Shown here one piece after another: positions 19,563 through 58,523 of a DNA stretch of 64,000 nucleotides (position 1 is the stretch's first letter; the number at the start of each line of letters is the position of its first letter). The stretch lies in NCBI RefSeq assembly GCF_001051995.2, contig NZ_CP014646.1, forward strand, positions 3,224,001-3,288,000, in the 5' to 3' direction. A program made the position numbers and the translations under genes. The DNA comes from Thauera humireducens (GTDB taxonomy: Bacteria; Pseudomonadota; Gammaproteobacteria; Burkholderiales; Rhodocyclaceae). The notes beneath the pieces were generated by a model that had not been told where the DNA came from, did not search any database, and saw only the letters and a program-made list of their open reading frames with translations.

Positions 19563-19797
19563 GTTGCCGTCGCGTGCGAAGTGTCAAAGCTGGCATGACG
19601 AGGGCATGGTATGGGCCGATGCTCGCCATCCGGTCCGGCTGTTGAGTCGCCCCGCAGGAGTCACAGCGCTCGTATTTCACGCGCCATCCGAGACGTCAGT
19701 CGGCCTCATCCAGACCGGAACAATTTGCACGTGAACGCCCGGTTGCGATTGCCGTGATCGAAATGGCGGCTGGTGACACGACTGCTTGATCTACCCC
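19563..19797 (-). repeat. Arm A of a 235 bp inverted repeat
   Basis: Read on the minus strand from 19797, this begins ggggtagatcaagcagtcgt and runs about 235 bases, matching 38703-38937 on the plus strand at roughly 90 percent with a few substitutions and single-base indels. The shared part stops near cgcacgcgacggca. A 68-residue reading frame over it is not conserved in the other arm, so I do not call a gene. The bases 19798-19964 to its right have no gene I can support. Confidence 0.85.
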
Positions 19798-19964
19798 TAG
19801 AAACCGCAGTTGTGACCCGCTTGCCGCTCCAAGCCGGCGTCGCGCAGGGACCTTCCGGCGTTCGCGACTTCTCTGAACTGCCGCTTTTAGGATCAAGGAA
19901 CCCCCAGAGCGAGAGATCGGGCAGCAACACAATCACTTGCGCTGGCAGGTCGGAGTCGGTCGTC

Positions 19965-27907: not shown

Positions 27908-27965
27908 GTTCAACGTTGGAATTCAGCGGCTGCCGTAGGCAGTCCGCTGGAATGACTTGTTGGGC
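27908..27965 (-). repeat. attC-like recombination site (cassette end), 58 bp
   Basis: On the minus strand it begins gcccaac (R'' box, RYYYAAC) and ends gttgaac (R' box, GTTRRRY). Between them a hairpin cagcgg-ctgcc-tac-ggcag-ccgctg can form. Length and layout fit a short integron attC. It follows the stop codon of the SnoaL-like gene by 37 bases, as expected for a gene cassette. Confidence 0.75.
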
Positions 27966-28002
27966 GATAGTTCCACTGTTTAGATACAGGGGGACAGTGG
28001 AT

Positions 28003-28563
28003 TTACTTGGGCTGGTACTCAAGTGATGAGTGGTGAAGGTTGATACGCAGATTTCCCGCATCATCTCTGACGTAACCCCACGTTTTGTCAACGGTAGTTA
28101 CTTTCCCATTCTTGTCGGTGAAGTGAACTTTCCCCATCGTAATTGCGCTATTACCATCAATAAAAATAGCAGAGTTCACAGGCTCGCATTTTCTCCAGCC
28201 TTTTAGAGCAAAGCCTGTGTCACTGGGGAAGGCGGTATCGCCACCCACGAAATAAGACAACGCACCAGCACGTGTTGGGCGAAACGTTTGGGGATTCACA
28301 GTAAGCGTTGGCTTAAAGAGGACTGCGCCCATCTGGTAGGCGTAAGCGGAATCAATGACTTTCCCAGCTAGCGCTTTCGCCGCCGCTTGCCCTTCCTTTT
28401 CGTACAAAGCGTTGATATCAAGCAGGGCACTACACCAAGCTCGCTGAGCCGCCACTGCTTCCTTCTCAGTGATTGCCTGATTTACAACGATAGGCTCATT
28501 TGCGGTTGCAATACTCGAAGTAAATGCGGCTACTGCTGTTAATGCTATGAATTTGACTTTCAT
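28003..28563 (-). CDS. Exported SnoaL/NTF2-like protein, gene-cassette position
   Basis: A 186-residue protein with a signal peptide (KFIALTAVAAFTSSIATA, cleavage near TANE). The mature part, with AQRAWCSALLDINALYEKEG, FKPTLTVNPQTFRPTRAGAL and HFTDKNGKVTTVDKTWGYV, has the look of the SnoaL/DUF4440-like fold seen in a family often labelled phosphoribosyl-AMP cyclohydrolase by error. The start has a good ribosome-binding site (aaaggag). It lies between two attC-like sites in the usual cassette orientation: start 50 bases after a gttaggc border, stop just before an attC. It is less GC-rich than its neighbours. Confidence 0.75.
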   Translation of the reverse strand: MKVKFIALTAVAAFTSSIATANEPIVVNQAITEKEAVAAQRAWCSALLDINALYEKEGQAAAKALAGKVIDSAYAYQMGAVLFKPTLTVNPQTFRPTRAGALSYFVGGDTAFPSDTGFALKGWRKCEPVNSAIFIDGNSAITMGKVHFTDKNGKVTTVDKTWGYVRDDAGNLRINLHHSSLEYQPK

Positions 28564-28613
28564 GGTTGAGACTCCTTTGGGTTGAGAAATGGGTTTCTGC
28601 AAATCTTTACTGC

Positions 28614-28697
28614 GCCTAACGAATAGGGTTTATCCCTCGCGCCGCAAGCGCCGTTCGGTGCGCAGGCGCCTGCCGCGAGGGATAAGCCTTGTTGAAC
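28614..28697 (-). repeat. attC-like site joined to the first IS91-type unit, 84 bp
   Basis: Borders are gcctaac on the left and gttgaac on the right (plus strand), matching RYYYAAC and GTTRRRY. The arms tttatccctcgcg and cgcgagggataa pair, as do inner gcgcc/ggcgc stretches, giving a long attC-type hairpin. The same site recurs at 54400-54483; bases 28616-28697 are identical there, and only the outermost border differs (gcctaac against ctctaac). Confidence 0.8.
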
Positions 28698-28956
28698 TGA
28701 ACCGCCGCTCAGGCGGTGATACTGGGGATTCTACGCGCGGGTCATCCACATCGGATAGCGCGCGGCAGGGTCGGGTCAGCAACGAGTATCCGACGCCGCT
28801 GAGCCGCTCGCGACCATCGCCGTAATGGGCCGCGATCGGGTGCCGGCCGTGCATCCGGCGTGCGGTGTCGGTCGCGTTCAGCAGACGGGGGACGTGCCAC
28901 GGCCTGCCGGTGCGGACGTTGCATCGGCAAGGGCCGAGACGGGGGAGCGTGAGTGT

Positions 28957-30141
28957 TCATGGCGGCCCATCCCGACAGCGCGGTGCAGGCGCGGGCGGAT
29001 CGTACCGGCGAGCCATGACGATCTCGACCGTGTGCCAACGCCCGACCCCACAGTGCGGGCAGCATCGCGGGTCCTCACCGCTCACGCGGGCGAGGAAGTC
29101 TGCGGCCGCTTCGATCACCGCCGGCTGCGGTGCCGGCGTCTGGAGTGCCACACGGGCGGCGGCGAGCCGGGCCCGCTTGTGGCCGCAGGCGAGCAGCCCG
29201 TAGTGGCGCAGGCGCTTGAAGCCGGCCGGCAGCACGTGGCGCAGGAAGCGTCCGATGAAGGTGTCGGTCGGCAGGCTGACCGTACGTTTGCCACCGGTCT
29301 GGTTGTCGCGCACCCGAAGGCGCACCTGGCCCGCATCGCAGCCAAGCAGGCGGTCGTTCGAGAGCGCCACGCGGTGCGTGTAGCGGGCAAGGTAGTCGAG
29401 CACCTGGGCGGGTCCGCCGGGCGGCGGCTTGGCGTAGACCACCCAGTCGTGCGCGAGCAGCGCACGACGTCGGGCTTGCCATGCACCCGGCGCAGCGCTC
29501 GGATCGTCGGCCAGCTCGCCGCTGCGGTGGGCCGCGTCGAGCCGCGTGAGGAGCTTGCCGCGAAACACCTTCGAGGCGGCCTGGACGGGAAACAGGAAGC
29601 GCGTACCGCGCGCCGGTGTGCGCCATCTGCCCTCGGCGTCGAGCCCGCCACAGGTGATCAGGGCGTGCACATGCAGGTGCATGCGCAGGTCCTGGCTCCA
29701 GGTGTGGAGCACGAGGCTGAAACCGGGCACGGCGCCCAGCCAGCGCGGGTTGGCGGCGAGCTCGAGCAAGGTGGCCGCCGCACTATCGAACAACGCACCG
29801 TAGAGCCAGCGCGGGTGCCGGATCGCCAGTGGATTGAGCGCGTGGGGCAGCGTGAACACCCAGTGTGCGTAGGGCACCGGCAGCACCTCGCGCAGGCGCG
29901 CCGCACGCCAGGCCTCCTTGGCCCGCGTCTGGCACTGCGGGCAATGGCGGTTGCGACACGAGCGCCAGACATGGCGCTCGGCGCCGCAGTTTGCGCAACG
30001 CTCGCGTACGCCGCCGAGCGCGGCGGTGCGGCAGTCGACGATGGCACGCCAGGCCCGCGCCTGGGTGGGCGACAGCGCATGGCTGCTGCGGTAGCTGCTG
30101 CCGTGCGTGCGCAGGATGCCGGCCAGCGTGGGCCGGTCCAT
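28957..30141 (-). CDS. IS91-family HUH (Y2) transposase, copy 1
   Basis: A 394-residue rolling-circle transposase. In order: an N-terminal zinc-binding part (CANCGAERHVW, then CRNRHCPQC) at residues 49-70, the HUH metal site MHLHVHALITCGG with His157 and His159, and the Y-x3-Y tyrosine pair in DYLARYTHRVALSN at residues 250 and 254. It nicks and joins single-stranded DNA. The gene starts 12 bases after the stop of the upstream recombinase gene, so the two are co-expressed. All motifs are intact and the element should be active. Confidence 0.95.
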   Translation of the reverse strand: MDRPTLAGILRTHGSSYRSSHALSPTQARAWRAIVDCRTAALGGVRERCANCGAERHVWRSCRNRHCPQCQTRAKEAWRAARLREVLPVPYAHWVFTLPHALNPLAIRHPRWLYGALFDSAAATLLELAANPRWLGAVPGFSLVLHTWSQDLRMHLHVHALITCGGLDAEGRWRTPARGTRFLFPVQAASKVFRGKLLTRLDAAHRSGELADDPSAAPGAWQARRRALLAHDWVVYAKPPPGGPAQVLDYLARYTHRVALSNDRLLGCDAGQVRLRVRDNQTGGKRTVSLPTDTFIGRFLRHVLPAGFKRLRHYGLLACGHKRARLAAARVALQTPAPQPAVIEAAADFLARVSGEDPRCCPHCGVGRWHTVEIVMARRYDPPAPAPRCRDGPP

Positions 30142-30153
30142 GGCCGCTCGGCC

Positions 30154-31002
30154 TCAGAGCCGGCGCAGCAGATCGAGCGGGCTGTCGTGGGGGATTGAAC
30201 CCGGACGCGCCAGATGCAGGTAGCGCTGCGTGGTCGACAGGTGGCCGTGGCCCAGGAGCTTCGCGAGCGTGGCAAGATCGACGCCGGCCTCCAGCAGATG
30301 GGTGGCGAAGGCGTGGCGTAGCGTGTGGATGCCGCCCGTCTTGGTGATGCCGGCCCGATCGCGGGCACGGTAGTACGCACGTTGCGCACTGCTGACGTCG
30401 AATGGCCGGGCGGCGTCGGTGGTGCGAGGGAACAGCCAGTCGCGGGGTTTGCAGATGCGCCAATAGACGCGCAGCGCTTCGAGCAGGCTCGGACTGAGCA
30501 GCGTGTAGCGATCCTTGCCACCCTTGCCCGCCACCACCCTGATGCACATGCGATCCGGCGCGCTGTCGATGTCGGCGACGCGCAGCGCGCACACCTCGGA
30601 CACCCGCAGTCCGGCCGCGTAAGCCGTCATCAACAGCGTGCGCGTGCGCAGATTGGCGGCCGCCTCGAACAGGCGCGCCAGTTCCTCGCGCGAGAGGATC
30701 TCCGGCTGACGCTGCGGCGTGTGCGCGTAGGGAATCGTGATGGCCTCGGCCGTGCGGCCCAGCACGATGTCGAAGAAGAACTTCAGGGCGCACACGGCTT
30801 GGTTCACGGTGGTGTAGGCCAGGTGCCGCTCGGTGATCCGGTGCAGCAGCCAGGCCTTCACCTGTGCGGCATCGAGGCGGTCGGGACTGCAGTGGTAGTG
30901 CGCGGCCAACTGCGCCACCACCGACAGGTAGGCCTGCTGCGTGCGCCGTGCCAATCCGCGCAGCACCATCGCGTCGATCATCTGCTGACGTAAGGGGCTC
31001 AT
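30154..31002 (-). CDS. Tyrosine recombinase of the IS91-type unit, copy 1
   Basis: A 282-residue XerC/D-like recombinase starting at ATG 31002 behind an aaggag ribosome-binding site. The N-terminal SAM-like domain is at about 1-85. Catalytic boxes are GLRVSEVCAL (Arg), VAGKGGKDR (Lys), HTLRHAFATHLLE (H-x-x-R), LGHGHLSTTQRYLH (His and Tyr). It lacks the extra helix insertion typical of integron IntI, so it is not an integron integrase by sequence. Pairing of such a gene with an IS91 transposase is seen in other proteobacteria, but its job in the element is unclear. Confidence 0.92.
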   Translation of the reverse strand: MSPLRQQMIDAMVLRGLARRTQQAYLSVVAQLAAHYHCSPDRLDAAQVKAWLLHRITERHLAYTTVNQAVCALKFFFDIVLGRTAEAITIPYAHTPQRQPEILSREELARLFEAAANLRTRTLLMTAYAAGLRVSEVCALRVADIDSAPDRMCIRVVAGKGGKDRYTLLSPSLLEALRVYWRICKPRDWLFPRTTDAARPFDVSSAQRAYYRARDRAGITKTGGIHTLRHAFATHLLEAGVDLATLAKLLGHGHLSTTQRYLHLARPGSIPHDSPLDLLRRL

Positions 31003-31120
31003 GACACTTCTCCTTGAACGCGGGGACATCCCCGGTTTCAAGGTAGGTCGTCGTCGCAGACGTCATGAAAAACGCGGTGGCGCTTGGGTTCGCGGCCACC
31101 GCGTCAGCGGTTTAGTTCAA

Positions 31121-31153
31121 CGTGCTTTATTTTCCGTTTTCTGAGACGACCCC
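31121..31153 (-). repeat. Truncated terminal inverted repeat of a Tn3-family transposon
   Basis: Read on the minus strand from 31153, ggggtcgtctcagaaaacgg followed by aaaataaagcacg matches the 38-base terminal repeats of Tn3-family (Tn21/TnAs type) transposons. The last five bases (usually ctaag) are replaced by the IS91-type unit. The GGGG tip faces right, so the lost transposon body lay to the left, where the unit now sits. No second copy of this repeat is in the window. Confidence 0.85.
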
Positions 31154-37252: not shown

Positions 37253-38728
37253 TCAGAAAGCCTCGCGCGCGTCGGCCACTGCCGGCGTTTGCGCATCCTC
37301 GCCGAGCAGCCGCTCGGTCGGCTTGCGACCGAACATCCAATACATGACCGGGGTAAGCAGGGTATCGAGCAGCGTCGAGCTGACCAAGCCACCGAAGATC
37401 ACGACCGCGACCGGGTGCAGGATCTCCTTGCCCGGGGCATCGGCGGCCAGCAGCAGCGGCGTCAGTGCGAAGGCTGCAACCAGGGCCGTCATCAGCACCG
37501 GCGTCAGCCGCTCGAGCGAGCCGCGCACGATCATGGCCTGGCTGAAAGTCTCGCCTTCGAACTTGCACAGGTTGATGTAGTGACTGATCTTGAGGATGCC
37601 GTTGCGCGTGGAGATACCCGCCAGCGTGATGAAGCCCACCATCGACGCCACCGACAGTTGTACCCCGGCGATCCACATCGCCAGCACAGAGCCGATCAGG
37701 GCCAGCGGGATGTTCGCCATCACGATGCCGGCCAGCACCGCCGACTGGTAGCGCGAGTACAGCACCAGAAAGATCATCACCAGCGACACCACCGACAGGC
37801 CCGCGATCAGGCGCGTGGCCTGCTCCTGGGCCTGGAACTGACCTTCCAGACTGATGAAGTAGCCGGTGGGCAACGCCTGCCCGGCGATCACGCCGCGCAC
37901 GGCAGCGATCACCTCGCTCATGTTGCTGCCATCGGTGTTGCCATAGACGACGATGCGGCGACGACCGTTCTCGCGTCCGACCTGGTTGGGCCCATCGGTC
38001 TCCTCGACGCTGGCGATGGCCGACACCGGCACGCGGCCGGCAGGGGTGTCGATCAGCATCCGCGCCAGATCCTGCGGGCCGCGCCGCTCATCGGGCAGAC
38101 GCAGCACCAGCTCGTAGCGGCGCGGACCGTCCACGATCTGCGCGCCGTGAGCGCCATCGGTCAGCGCCTGCAGCACGCGGATCGCCTCGCCGGGCGACAG
38201 CCCGAGCTGGGCGGCCTTGCGATGGTCCAGCCGCACGGTGATCTGCGGAATCAGCACCTGCTTTTCGACCGTCAGGTCGACCAGGCCGGGCACCCCGCTC
38301 AGCCCGGATCGCATCTGTTCGGCCAGGCCGCGCAGCGTGTCGATGTCGTCGCCGAATATCTTCACGGCCACCTGGGCGCGCACGCCCGACAGCAGGTGAT
38401 CGAGGCGGTGGCTGATCGGTTGGCCGATGGCCACCTGCGCCGGCAGCACCGAGAGCCGGTCCCGGATGTCGGCCATGATGGCCTCGCGGTCGCGCCCGCT
38501 GCGCTTGAGGTCCACGTCGATCTCGGCCGAGTGCACGCCTTCGGCATGCTCGTCGAGCTCGGCACGGCCGGTGCGGCGGCCGACCTGGGTCACCTCGGGA
38601 ACCTGGCCGATCAGCAGTTCGGCCTCACGCCCCATCCGGTTGGCTTCGGCCAGCGAGGTGCCGGGCTGCATCACCAGGCCCAGTACCAGCGAACCCTCGT
38701 TGAGGGGTAGATCAAGCAGTCGTGTCAC
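37253..38728 (-). pseudogene. Heavy-metal RND efflux pump (czcA-like), 5' half missing
   Basis: The C-terminal 480 or so residues of a CzcA/CusA-type pump (full length about 1040). The family reading begins LNEGSLVLGLVMQPGTSLAE at about 38702; the first 8 codons to 38728 come from the inverted-repeat arm. Present are GRAELDEHAEGVHSAEIDVD, DIDTLRGLAEQM and the last transmembrane bundle up to MYWMFGRKPTE. The N-terminal bundle with the proton relay is lost, so it cannot pump. It resembles but is not identical to the intact copy at 43984-47103. Confidence 0.9.
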
Positions 38729-38937
38729 CAGCCGCCATTTCGATCACGGCAATGGCAGCCGGGCGTTCACGTTCAAATTGTTCCGGTCTGGATGAGGCCG
38801 ACTGACGTCTCGGATGGCGCGTGACATACGAGCGCTGTGACTCCTGCAGGGGCGACTCAACAGCCTGACCGGACGGCGAGCATCGGCCCTTCTCACGTAT
38901 TCGTCATGTCAGCTTTGACGCTGCGCACGCGACGGCA
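38703..38937 (+). repeat. Arm B of the 235 bp inverted repeat
   Basis: It begins ggggtagatcaagcagtcgt directly at the break in czcA and matches 19563-19797 in inverted orientation. The sharp junction with czcA at about 38703 marks this base as a true element end or recombination point. The following 200 bases to the CDF gene have no gene I can support. Confidence 0.85.
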
Positions 38938-53980: not shown

Positions 53981-54067
53981 GCCTAACGTGTAGGTGACCG
54001 GCCTCGCGCGGCCTTGTCGCGCGAGGTCCAGCGACCGAAGGGAGCGAGGTCGACCGGAAGGTTAGAG
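53981..54067 (-). repeat. attC-like site between two cassette-type genes, 87 bp
   Basis: Borders gcctaac (plus-strand left) and gttagag (right) fit RYYYAAC/GTTRRRY apart from the last base. The interior is a dyad: tgaccggcctcgcgc and ggtcgaccgg arms with central gcgcggc/gtcgcgc. The gttagag border is complementary to the ctctaac border at 54400, as expected for the two ends of one cassette. Confidence 0.75.
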
Positions 54068-54399: not shown

Positions 54400-54483
54400 C
54401 TCTAACGAATAGGGTTTATCCCTCGCGCCGCAAGCGCCGTTCGGTGCGCAGGCGCCTGCCGCGAGGGATAAGCCTTGTTGAAC
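54400..54483 (-). repeat. attC-like site joined to the second IS91-type unit, 84 bp
   Basis: Same hairpin as at 28614-28697; identity begins at 54402 and runs into the IS91-type unit without a break. The outer border is ctctaac here rather than gcctaac. On the minus strand this is the site between the unit and the YidD-like cassette. Confidence 0.8.
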
Positions 54484-54742
54484 TGAACCGCCGCTCAGGC
54501 GGTGATACTGGGGATTCTACGCGCGGGTCATCCACATCGGATAGCGCGCGGCAGGGTCGGGTCAGCAACGAGTATCCGACGCCGCTGAGCCGCTCGCGAC
54601 CATCGCCGTAATGGGCCGCGATCGGGTGCCGGCCGTGCATCCGGCGTGCGGTGTCGGTCGCGTTCAGCAGACGGGGGACGTGCCACGGCCTGCCGGTGCG
54701 GACGTTGCATCGGCAAGGGCCGAGACGGGGGAGCGTGAGTGT

Positions 54743-55927
54743 TCATGGCGGCCCATCCCGACAGCGCGGTGCAGGCGCGGGCGGATCGTACCGGCGAGCC
54801 ATGACGATCTCGACCGTGTGCCAACGCCCGACCCCACAGTGCGGGCAGCATCGCGGGTCCTCACCGCTCACGCGGGCGAGGAAGTCTGCGGCCGCTTCGA
54901 TCACCGCCGGCTGCGGTGCCGGCGTCTGGAGTGCCACACGGGCGGCGGCGAGCCGGGCCCGCTTGTGGCCGCAGGCGAGCAGCCCGTAGTGGCGCAGGCG
55001 CTTGAAGCCGGCCGGCAGCACGTGGCGCAGGAAGCGTCCGATGAAGGTGTCGGTCGGCAGGCTGACCGTACGTTTGCCACCGGTCTGGTTGTCGCGCACC
55101 CGAAGGCGCACCTGGCCCGCATCGCAGCCAAGCAGGCGGTCGTTCGAGAGCGCCACGCGGTGCGTGTAGCGGGCAAGGTAGTCGAGCACCTGGGCGGGTC
55201 CGCCGGGCGGCGGCTTGGCGTAGACCACCCAGTCGTGCGCGAGCAGCGCACGACGTCGGGCTTGCCATGCACCCGGCGCAGCGCTCGGATCGTCGGCCAG
55301 CTCGCCGCTGCGGTGGGCCGCGTCGAGCCGCGTGAGGAGCTTGCCGCGAAACACCTTCGAGGCGGCCTGGACGGGAAACAGGAAGCGCGTACCGCGCGCC
55401 GGTGTGCGCCATCTGCCCTCGGCGTCGAGCCCGCCACAGGTGATCAGGGCGTGCACATGCAGGTGCATGCGCAGGTCCTGGCTCCAGGTGTGGAGCACGA
55501 GGCTGAAACCGGGCACGGCGCCCAGCCAGCGCGGGTTGGCGGCGAGCTCGAGCAAGGTGGCCGCCGCACTATCGAACAACGCACCGTAGAGCCAGCGCGG
55601 GTGCCGGATCGCCAGTGGATTGAGCGCGTGGGGCAGCGTGAACACCCAGTGTGCGTAGGGCACCGGCAGCACCTCGCGCAGGCGCGCCGCACGCCAGGCC
55701 TCCTTGGCCCGCGTCTGGCACTGCGGGCAATGGCGGTTGCGACACGAGCGCCAGACATGGCGCTCGGCGCCGCAGTTTGCGCAACGCTCGCGTACGCCGC
55801 CGAGCGCGGCGGTGCGGCAGTCGACGATGGCACGCCAGGCCCGCGCCTGGGTGGGCGACAGCGCATGGCTGCTGCGGTAGCTGCTGCCGTGCGTGCGCAG
55901 GATGCCGGCCAGCGTGGGCCGGTCCAT
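54743..55927 (-). CDS. IS91-family HUH (Y2) transposase, copy 2
   Basis: A 394-residue protein identical to the one at 28957-30141, including the zinc-binding cysteines, the HLHVH metal site and the Y-x3-Y nucleophiles. No decay is visible, so the duplication is recent. Confidence 0.95.
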   Translation of the reverse strand: MDRPTLAGILRTHGSSYRSSHALSPTQARAWRAIVDCRTAALGGVRERCANCGAERHVWRSCRNRHCPQCQTRAKEAWRAARLREVLPVPYAHWVFTLPHALNPLAIRHPRWLYGALFDSAAATLLELAANPRWLGAVPGFSLVLHTWSQDLRMHLHVHALITCGGLDAEGRWRTPARGTRFLFPVQAASKVFRGKLLTRLDAAHRSGELADDPSAAPGAWQARRRALLAHDWVVYAKPPPGGPAQVLDYLARYTHRVALSNDRLLGCDAGQVRLRVRDNQTGGKRTVSLPTDTFIGRFLRHVLPAGFKRLRHYGLLACGHKRARLAAARVALQTPAPQPAVIEAAADFLARVSGEDPRCCPHCGVGRWHTVEIVMARRYDPPAPAPRCRDGPP

Positions 55928-55939
55928 GGCCGCTCGGCC

Positions 55940-56788
55940 TCAGAGCCGGCGCAGCAGATCGAGCGGGCTGTCGTGGGGGATTGAACCCGGACGCGCCAGA
56001 TGCAGGTAGCGCTGCGTGGTCGACAGGTGGCCGTGGCCCAGGAGCTTCGCGAGCGTGGCAAGATCGACGCCGGCCTCCAGCAGATGGGTGGCGAAGGCGT
56101 GGCGTAGCGTGTGGATGCCGCCCGTCTTGGTGATGCCGGCCCGATCGCGGGCACGGTAGTACGCACGTTGCGCACTGCTGACGTCGAATGGCCGGGCGGC
56201 GTCGGTGGTGCGAGGGAACAGCCAGTCGCGGGGTTTGCAGATGCGCCAATAGACGCGCAGCGCTTCGAGCAGGCTCGGACTGAGCAGCGTGTAGCGATCC
56301 TTGCCACCCTTGCCCGCCACCACCCTGATGCACATGCGATCCGGCGCGCTGTCGATGTCGGCGACGCGCAGCGCGCACACCTCGGACACCCGCAGTCCGG
56401 CCGCGTAAGCCGTCATCAACAGCGTGCGCGTGCGCAGATTGGCGGCCGCCTCGAACAGGCGCGCCAGTTCCTCGCGCGAGAGGATCTCCGGCTGACGCTG
56501 CGGCGTGTGCGCGTAGGGAATCGTGATGGCCTCGGCCGTGCGGCCCAGCACGATGTCGAAGAAGAACTTCAGGGCGCACACGGCTTGGTTCACGGTGGTG
56601 TAGGCCAGGTGCCGCTCGGTGATCCGGTGCAGCAGCCAGGCCTTCACCTGTGCGGCATCGAGGCGGTCGGGACTGCAGTGGTAGTGCGCGGCCAACTGCG
56701 CCACCACCGACAGGTAGGCCTGCTGCGTGCGCCGTGCCAATCCGCGCAGCACCATCGCGTCGATCATCTGCTGACGTAAGGGGCTCAT
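55940..56788 (-). CDS. Tyrosine recombinase of the IS91-type unit, copy 2
   Basis: A 282-residue protein identical to the one at 30154-31002, with all six catalytic positions present and the same ribosome-binding site before the ATG. It ends 12 bases before the transposase start. Confidence 0.93.
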   Translation of the reverse strand: MSPLRQQMIDAMVLRGLARRTQQAYLSVVAQLAAHYHCSPDRLDAAQVKAWLLHRITERHLAYTTVNQAVCALKFFFDIVLGRTAEAITIPYAHTPQRQPEILSREELARLFEAAANLRTRTLLMTAYAAGLRVSEVCALRVADIDSAPDRMCIRVVAGKGGKDRYTLLSPSLLEALRVYWRICKPRDWLFPRTTDAARPFDVSSAQRAYYRARDRAGITKTGGIHTLRHAFATHLLEAGVDLATLAKLLGHGHLSTTQRYLHLARPGSIPHDSPLDLLRRL

Positions 56789-56897
56789 GACACTTCTCCT
56801 TGAACGCGGGGACATCCCCGGTTTCAAGGTAGGTCGTCGTCGCAGACGTCATGAAAAACGCGGTGGCGCTTGGGTTCGCGGCCACCGCGTCAGCGGT

Positions 56898-58523
<1,626 letters not shown>

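Follow-up and report, generated by a model that had tools for sequence, protein, structure and literature searches.

How can an element that encodes its own transposase and recombinase be bounded like an integron gene cassette? The question was raised by a repeated unit in a 64,000-nucleotide (nt) stretch of the Thauera humireducens genome (NZ_CP014646.1, positions 3,224,001 to 3,288,000, forward strand; here called the window), which carries an IS91-type transposase gene and a tyrosine recombinase gene. A preliminary description had offered two explanations, a giant cassette that travels with its own attC recombination site or an insertion sequence (IS) that inserts at an existing attC. Our analysis favors the former. 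The 3' end appears to be a built-in attC-type site, and the two-gene element would thereby double as an integron cassette; it is probably a self-mobile element and at the same time a 2.5-kb cassette moved by the integron integrase IntI. The anatomy of the element, its exact borders in the copies of this genome and in a relative on an E. coli plasmid (L137), its positions and orientation in integrons and the corresponding element-free junctions were directly observable.

Copies, limits and terminal hairpin

This genome has three copies of the unit. Two are in the window (28616-31121 and 54402-56907) and agree at all 2,506 bp, and the third (G000:C1:776652-779159) matches completely over 2,505 bp, which bears out the identical unit previously described at 28616-31121. 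To the left of this block copies 1 and 2 have no base in common. The TTAG that both carry directly after the left limit of the element is shared by chance; copy 3 reads TTAT there, which places the left limit at ...ATTCG|TT. The earlier assignment of both limits to G/TT recombination points thus stood for the copies of this genome, while the left limit proposed at 'ctaac' fell with the TTAT of copy 3; nor does the unit begin at 27908, as a neighboring ordinary cassette (attC at 27908-27965) had been wrongly included. As cassettes (TTGAAC...ATTCG), copies 1 and 2 span 28620..31120 and 54406..56906 on the minus strand, as delimited by copy identity within the repeated blocks and, for copy 1, by the G|TT limits of copy 3 and of relatives.

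Read along the minus strand, the element starts with the 5' tip GTTGAACTAAACCGC (31107..31121 in copy 1), followed by the tyrosine recombinase gene (30154..31002, 282 amino acids (aa)), the transposase gene (28957..30141, 394 aa), GGCGGTTCAGTTCAAC and an 80-nt hairpin region that ends in ATTCG|TT. The attC-like 3' end (28618..28697, minus strand) consists of an R'' box GTTCAAC (28691-28697), an inner stem with 13 pairs in the family alignment and a closing GTT (28618-28620), as assigned from its fold and from pair counts over 39 termini. The first seven nt of the tip are complementary to the R'' box, in agreement with the complementarity noted earlier between the border gttcaac and the first bases of the unit. 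A subterminal inverted copy of the tip, GTTGAACTGAACCGC, lies on the plus strand at 28691..28705.

Relatives of the transposase were taken from one genome per species (the best 80 of 131 were kept) and from 199 genomes of the family that were surveyed. The counts below cover 72 elements with a 5' tip, out of 95 rows in all. G|TT recombination points were found at both limits in the three copies of this genome, in L137 and at 72 termini, the last count not being independent for the TT, which was part of the terminus search pattern. The flanks 3' of the elements start with TTAG, TTAT, TTGG and others. In IS91 insertions the origin end abuts GAAC or CAAG, a rule that these 3' flanks do not follow. 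A TACAAT or TAGAAT located about 75-165 nt before the 3' end in 47 of the 72 elements (no control) is perhaps an outward promoter; a consensus search for promoters at the 3' end of the window copy was negative.

Folding of the hairpin on both strands, as proposed in the preliminary description, gave structures that beat shuffled sequences (DNA z-scores -3.42 and -3.69) and were equaled by 2 and 1 of 200 shuffles, respectively. The hairpin was found by pattern at 72 termini, the three copies of this genome included, and DNA comparison showed that the 5' tip and 3' end are kept even where the transposase has no more than about 50-73% identity to the one in the window. Over 39 non-redundant termini (40 were drawn; L022, whose R'' box was misread, was omitted) 97.0% of the cells were paired, 32 double changes occurred and covariation was 0.149 compared with 0.043 in shuffled alignments; none of 500 shuffles was as high for paired cells, double-change cells or the covariation score. 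These 39 termini have the R''/R' boxes and foldable inner stem of a cassette 3' site. Opposite the tip GTTGAAC, the R'' box read GTCCAAC (38), GTTCAAC (14) or GCTCAAC (2) in 54 of 56 pairs. When ten elements were checked singly, the hairpin sequence was visible in L016-L019 and L041 (L019 and L041 being cut by a contig end), L074 had a different hairpin, with the same boxes but another stem, and L024 and L105 were too short to tell. The entire 3' end was lost in two copies (the second copy of L034 and the minus-strand copy of L035). Copies limited at 28691, at the core tip, with unrelated DNA beyond, which the preliminary description had named as evidence to the contrary, were not seen among the copies examined. 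Judged by its distribution, the hairpin belongs to the element and not to its surroundings.

Positions in integrons

Copy 3 occupies the attI1 site of a class 1 integron. Its junctions read ..CCCTAAAACAAAG|TTGAAC..element..ATTCG|TTATGCT.., followed by ereA; the upstream side has a truncated intI1 and the downstream side the cassettes ereA and aadA, and the Rfam attI family RF02912 spans the junction with 60.6 bits (gathering score 56). The element-free junction attI1|TTATGCT..ereA2 was found in T. aromatica pKJK172 (L153), with an ereA2 cassette that is 93% alike. A second, full-length intI1 (NF011946, 799 bits) is present in the same genome near 755 kb (L167) and counts in favor of cassette movement by IntI. 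The class 1 integron region around copy 3 (L005, G000:C1:770000-785500) carries ereA, an aadA3-like gene and floR as well as a fragment of sul1 that is fused with a relaxase-like tail.

The relative L137 shares 67% DNA identity across 74% of the query. It comes from pM216_AC2, a conjugative IncC plasmid of a hospital E. coli, where it is flanked by aac(6')-IIa and aadA4. The attC of aac(6')-IIa ends ..CAGGTG|TTGAAC, and the element end ..TGATCG|TTAGGC precedes aadA4. pM216_AC2 was the sole record with that copy among 72,556 in PLSDB (at least 80% cover), and none of 5,426 E. coli genomes had it at 80% cover.

Among the 72 elements, 17 had a divergent intI or intI fragment within 400 bp (IntI alignments of at least 225 aa in ten, fragments of only 33-106 aa in seven), and nine directly followed an attC that ended no more than 1 nt from the seventh base of the tip; attCs were merely nearby in 16 more. 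These 17 and nine elements are thus placed and oriented as cassettes are, next to attI or immediately behind an attC. Outside the intI group, 6 of the 51 flanks were attI-like (at least 60% identity; top control 47.5%). Ordinary attCs were searched for with two covariance models, R1 and R2, built from 14 and 52 neighboring attCs; the R2 training sequences were R1 hits, all near elements, which biases this model toward finding attCs here. At E<=0.01, 64 of the 67 attCs detected in 86 sources lay on the element's strand (off-strand, two in L030 and one in L065); all 14 R1 training sites are among the 64, and without them the count is 50 of 53. At 17 loci of more distant relatives no attC was detected at E 0.01 and one at 0.019, L105 being counted both here and among the 72. 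A pattern-based attC finder was abandoned after it returned 24 same-strand and 29 opposite-strand candidates, a poor performance that is due to the near-palindromic nature of attC sites.

In a sample searched with the tip only, which overlaps the main set (at least L207 is the L041 place and L209 the L097 place), the element was present in 8 of 399 genomes of the order, T. humireducens included, and in 1 of 398 in the phylum, T. humireducens itself. Eleven tips lay outside this genome: three with intI or a fragment, three others with the attI flank of one of those, two with a downstream attC and three with none, so that 8 of the 11 show an integron context. By record titles, many betaproteobacterial genomes carry the element. 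Searches of viral contigs with the transposase and of phage records with the recombinase returned nothing.

Empty sites, which the preliminary description had suggested looking for, turned up for copy 3 (L153, above) and, in more diverged form, for L011 (L166, below). No element-free junction was found for L014, L138 or L018, and the search for L012 returned only a repeated flank. This 180-bp flank is repeated through Thauera genomes and ends at G|TT before differing sequences (L012, L009, L157, L158, L160, and near 757 kb and 1,900 kb in T. humireducens); two of the T. humireducens copies have a tyrosine recombinase gene (256-267 aa) no more than 300 bp away.

Mechanism and competing explanations

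In the mechanism that we favor, the integrase of the host integron would take up the element at attI or an attC. As the junctions suggest, IntI would recombine the folded 3' end with either site, cutting between G and TT, and the element would land in the usual cassette orientation. The two encoded enzymes would add movement of their own, and the recombinase and transposase together probably allow further movement outside integrons. The giant-cassette proposal gained support from the hairpin, which travels with the element (72 termini), and from the many members located at attI or after an attC at G|TT.

Both enzymes appear intact. The recombinase (PF00589, 128.6 bits) is Xer/IntI-like, and its catalytic R, K, H, R, H and Y residues are all kept in the alignment. 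It scores 174.9 bits against the IntI family TIGR02249, for which the cut-off is 265, and falls outside the IntI clade of the tree (IntI support 100/99), in which IntI and Xer join by a long branch; the insert of about 40 residues found in IntIs is absent from all ten element recombinases aligned. The tree and the alignment rule out a captured intI, and on this comparison the tyrosine recombinase of the element is not an IntI. The transposase (PF04986, PF14319; NF033538 with 405 bits, cut-off 125) is a Y2 HUH transposase with a zinc-binding domain and as such belongs to the IS91 family; what we take to be the HUH and paired-tyrosine motifs can be read in its sequence.

Several observations weigh against cassette movement by IntI. 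Neither ordinary-attC model matched the element's hairpin, R1 having been run against 44 sources at E<=1 and R2 against 86 at E<=10, so that of the covariance-model support called for earlier, covariation within the hairpin's own family was obtained while recognition as an ordinary attC was not. Such recognition is a test of likeness and not a defining step of cassette movement; the site would either be divergent or, strictly speaking, not be an attC. Two of the five hairpin measures stayed within the range of the shuffles: 45 of 500 shuffles were as high for the number of doubly changed pairs and 31 of 500 for that of further pair types. No excised circle of the element was seen, nor could sequence comparison of this kind reveal one. 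Of the three Variovorax copies, only L018 has G|TT at the 3' limit, L016 having G|AT and L017 G|GT; integrase insertions outside integrons follow a GWT rule, which G|AT would fit and G|GT would not. No intI or attC was detected around 30 of the 72 elements, a group that includes three of the six with attI-like flanks (L015, L036 and L041) and some with short flanks or contig ends. L011 is inserted at G|TT, and no integron part was detected there; its element-free counterpart L166, 91% alike upstream and 71% over 87 nt downstream, likewise has no detected attC, and this pair indicates that IntI need not be the only agent. Distant relatives without detected integrons also end in foldable hairpins (no shuffle control). 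Finally, copy 2 in the window abuts the end of an ABC-F gene, and the homologue in genome G205 reads through AAGTACGTG|TT without the element.

Part of this evidence would also be accounted for if the element's own tyrosine recombinase inserted it at G|TT-type sites, with attI and attC favored and IntI playing no role. The 30 elements without detected integron context and the L011 insertion are in line with such an activity, as are the catalytic residues of the recombinase and the copies on two plasmids of Legionella antarctica (L142, L147), which share about 15 bp on both sides, where no attC was detected and where the recombinase gene beside the L142 copy is not IntI-like. The recombinase nevertheless lies outside the IntI clade and lacks the IntI insert, and in two class 1 integrons the element is positioned as cleanly as an ordinary product of IntI; we regard this explanation as unlikely. 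The arms shared by L142 and L147, TGATGGATAAGGTACG and TTATCTATCTCAAAC, form an imperfect palindrome, which we presume to resemble a Xer site, and no second occurrence of the left arm was found in either plasmid with up to two mismatches. It is far less probable that the hairpin is solely oriIS, the replication origin of IS91-type elements, and that it resembles attC and lies in integron neighborhoods by coincidence. Foldable terminal sequences occur outside detected integrons in Leisingera (L145/L146), Caballeronia (L143), Terriglobia (L082) and Sinorhizobium (L149), again with no shuffle control, but the exact attI1 and attC junctions, the strand agreement and the element-free junction contradict coincidence; an origin that also serves as attC is possible and fits movement as a cassette. 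The other proposal of the preliminary description, an IS that inserts specifically beside existing attCs in the manner of IS1111-attC elements, found no support and seems hardly credible. The core tips minus the hairpin do resemble plain IS ends, and integron neighborhoods are common; we reject this explanation, since the hairpin moves along with the element, being kept and covarying over its termini, while the neighboring attCs are ordinary and of a different type and none of the copies seen stopped at the core tip.

The hairpins of distant relatives without detected integrons suggest that this structure may originally have served in transposition and was later taken over as attC. We put forward only tentatively, as something rather doubtful, that the enzymes of the element use the hairpin as their native recombination site (as HUH origin, as recombinase site or as both) and that it serves as attC besides; those distant terminal hairpins would be in line with this. 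Solitary 3' ends that lie beside other DNA without a recognizable transposase (L187, L188, L190, L192 and others) are a possible source of new attCs. Six of them (L187-L192) comprise about 125 bp with the hairpin and no 5' tip, and no transposase match was obtained in the stretches fetched (for L188 only 386 nt before the end). The 3' end of L194 retains a transposase remnant.

Window surroundings and relation to known elements

On the minus strand, the cassette next to copy 1 carries a carbonic-anhydrase-like gene (28003..28563; 261 bits, below the cut-off of 350) and an ordinary attC (27908..27965; R1 63.6 bits, R2 60.2 bits) that is a training sequence of both models and lies on the element's strand. 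So does the attC of the cassette after copy 2 (53981..54067, minus strand; R1 31.9 bits, this site being outside the R1 training set, and R2 46.3 bits). The 5' neighbor of copy 1 (31122..31153, plus strand) is presumably most of a Tn21-type terminal inverted repeat. Copy 2 is preceded by the 3' end of the ABC-F gene (56908..58523, minus strand; homologue in G205), which we take to be ettA-like. The stretch of about 50 kb at 6812-56907 that contains both copies is absent from genomes G169 and G204, where its two flanks meet at the end of the ABC-F gene; by sequence comparison this stretch is a genomic island. An inverted repeat of 149 nt (19650-19798 and 38703-38851) has arms that are 97% complementary and 18.9 kb apart.

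The element resembles integron cassettes in its G|TT limits, attC-like 3' site, position at attI or after an attC, orientation and element-free junction, and differs from them in carrying two recombination enzymes of its own, in its size of 2.5 kb and in an attC unmatched by R1 and R2. IS1111-attC elements were reportedly described by Tetu and Holmes in 2008 and by Post and Hall. According to the accessible parts of two papers that cite them, these are mobile elements in cassette arrays that insert into existing attCs (cited in PMC9229058, PMC11089894). The present element is likewise a mobile element within cassette arrays, but it brings its own attC-like site where those enter an existing one. 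With IS91-family members that have an upstream tyrosine recombinase it shares the Y2 HUH transposase, the recombinase gene and the hairpin at the transposase end, which is present in the relatives that were folded; it differs in that this end acts as a cassette border and that the flanks are not the GAAC/CAAG target. ISfinder holds other IS91-family members with an upstream tyrosine recombinase. A single similar case, ISShvi3 of Shewanella sp. Choline-02u, is noted and named IS91-like in the available part of PMC9229058; the likeness concerns this one element by its published description. In the literature searched, mostly without subscription papers, we found no account in which an attC is a conserved component of such elements, and we do not claim its absence from print.

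Cassettes are regarded as passive cargo that depends on IntI, and this one carries a transposase and a recombinase of its own. The element has made its way into class 1 integrons, including one carried by a conjugative plasmid of a hospital E. coli. It offers a testable system for the origin of attC sites and new cassettes and for the question of whether cassettes can spread without an integron. If the hairpin is indeed a native site that doubles as attC, the IS91-recombinase lineage would consist of self-propelled cassettes and would be a source of new attC sites.

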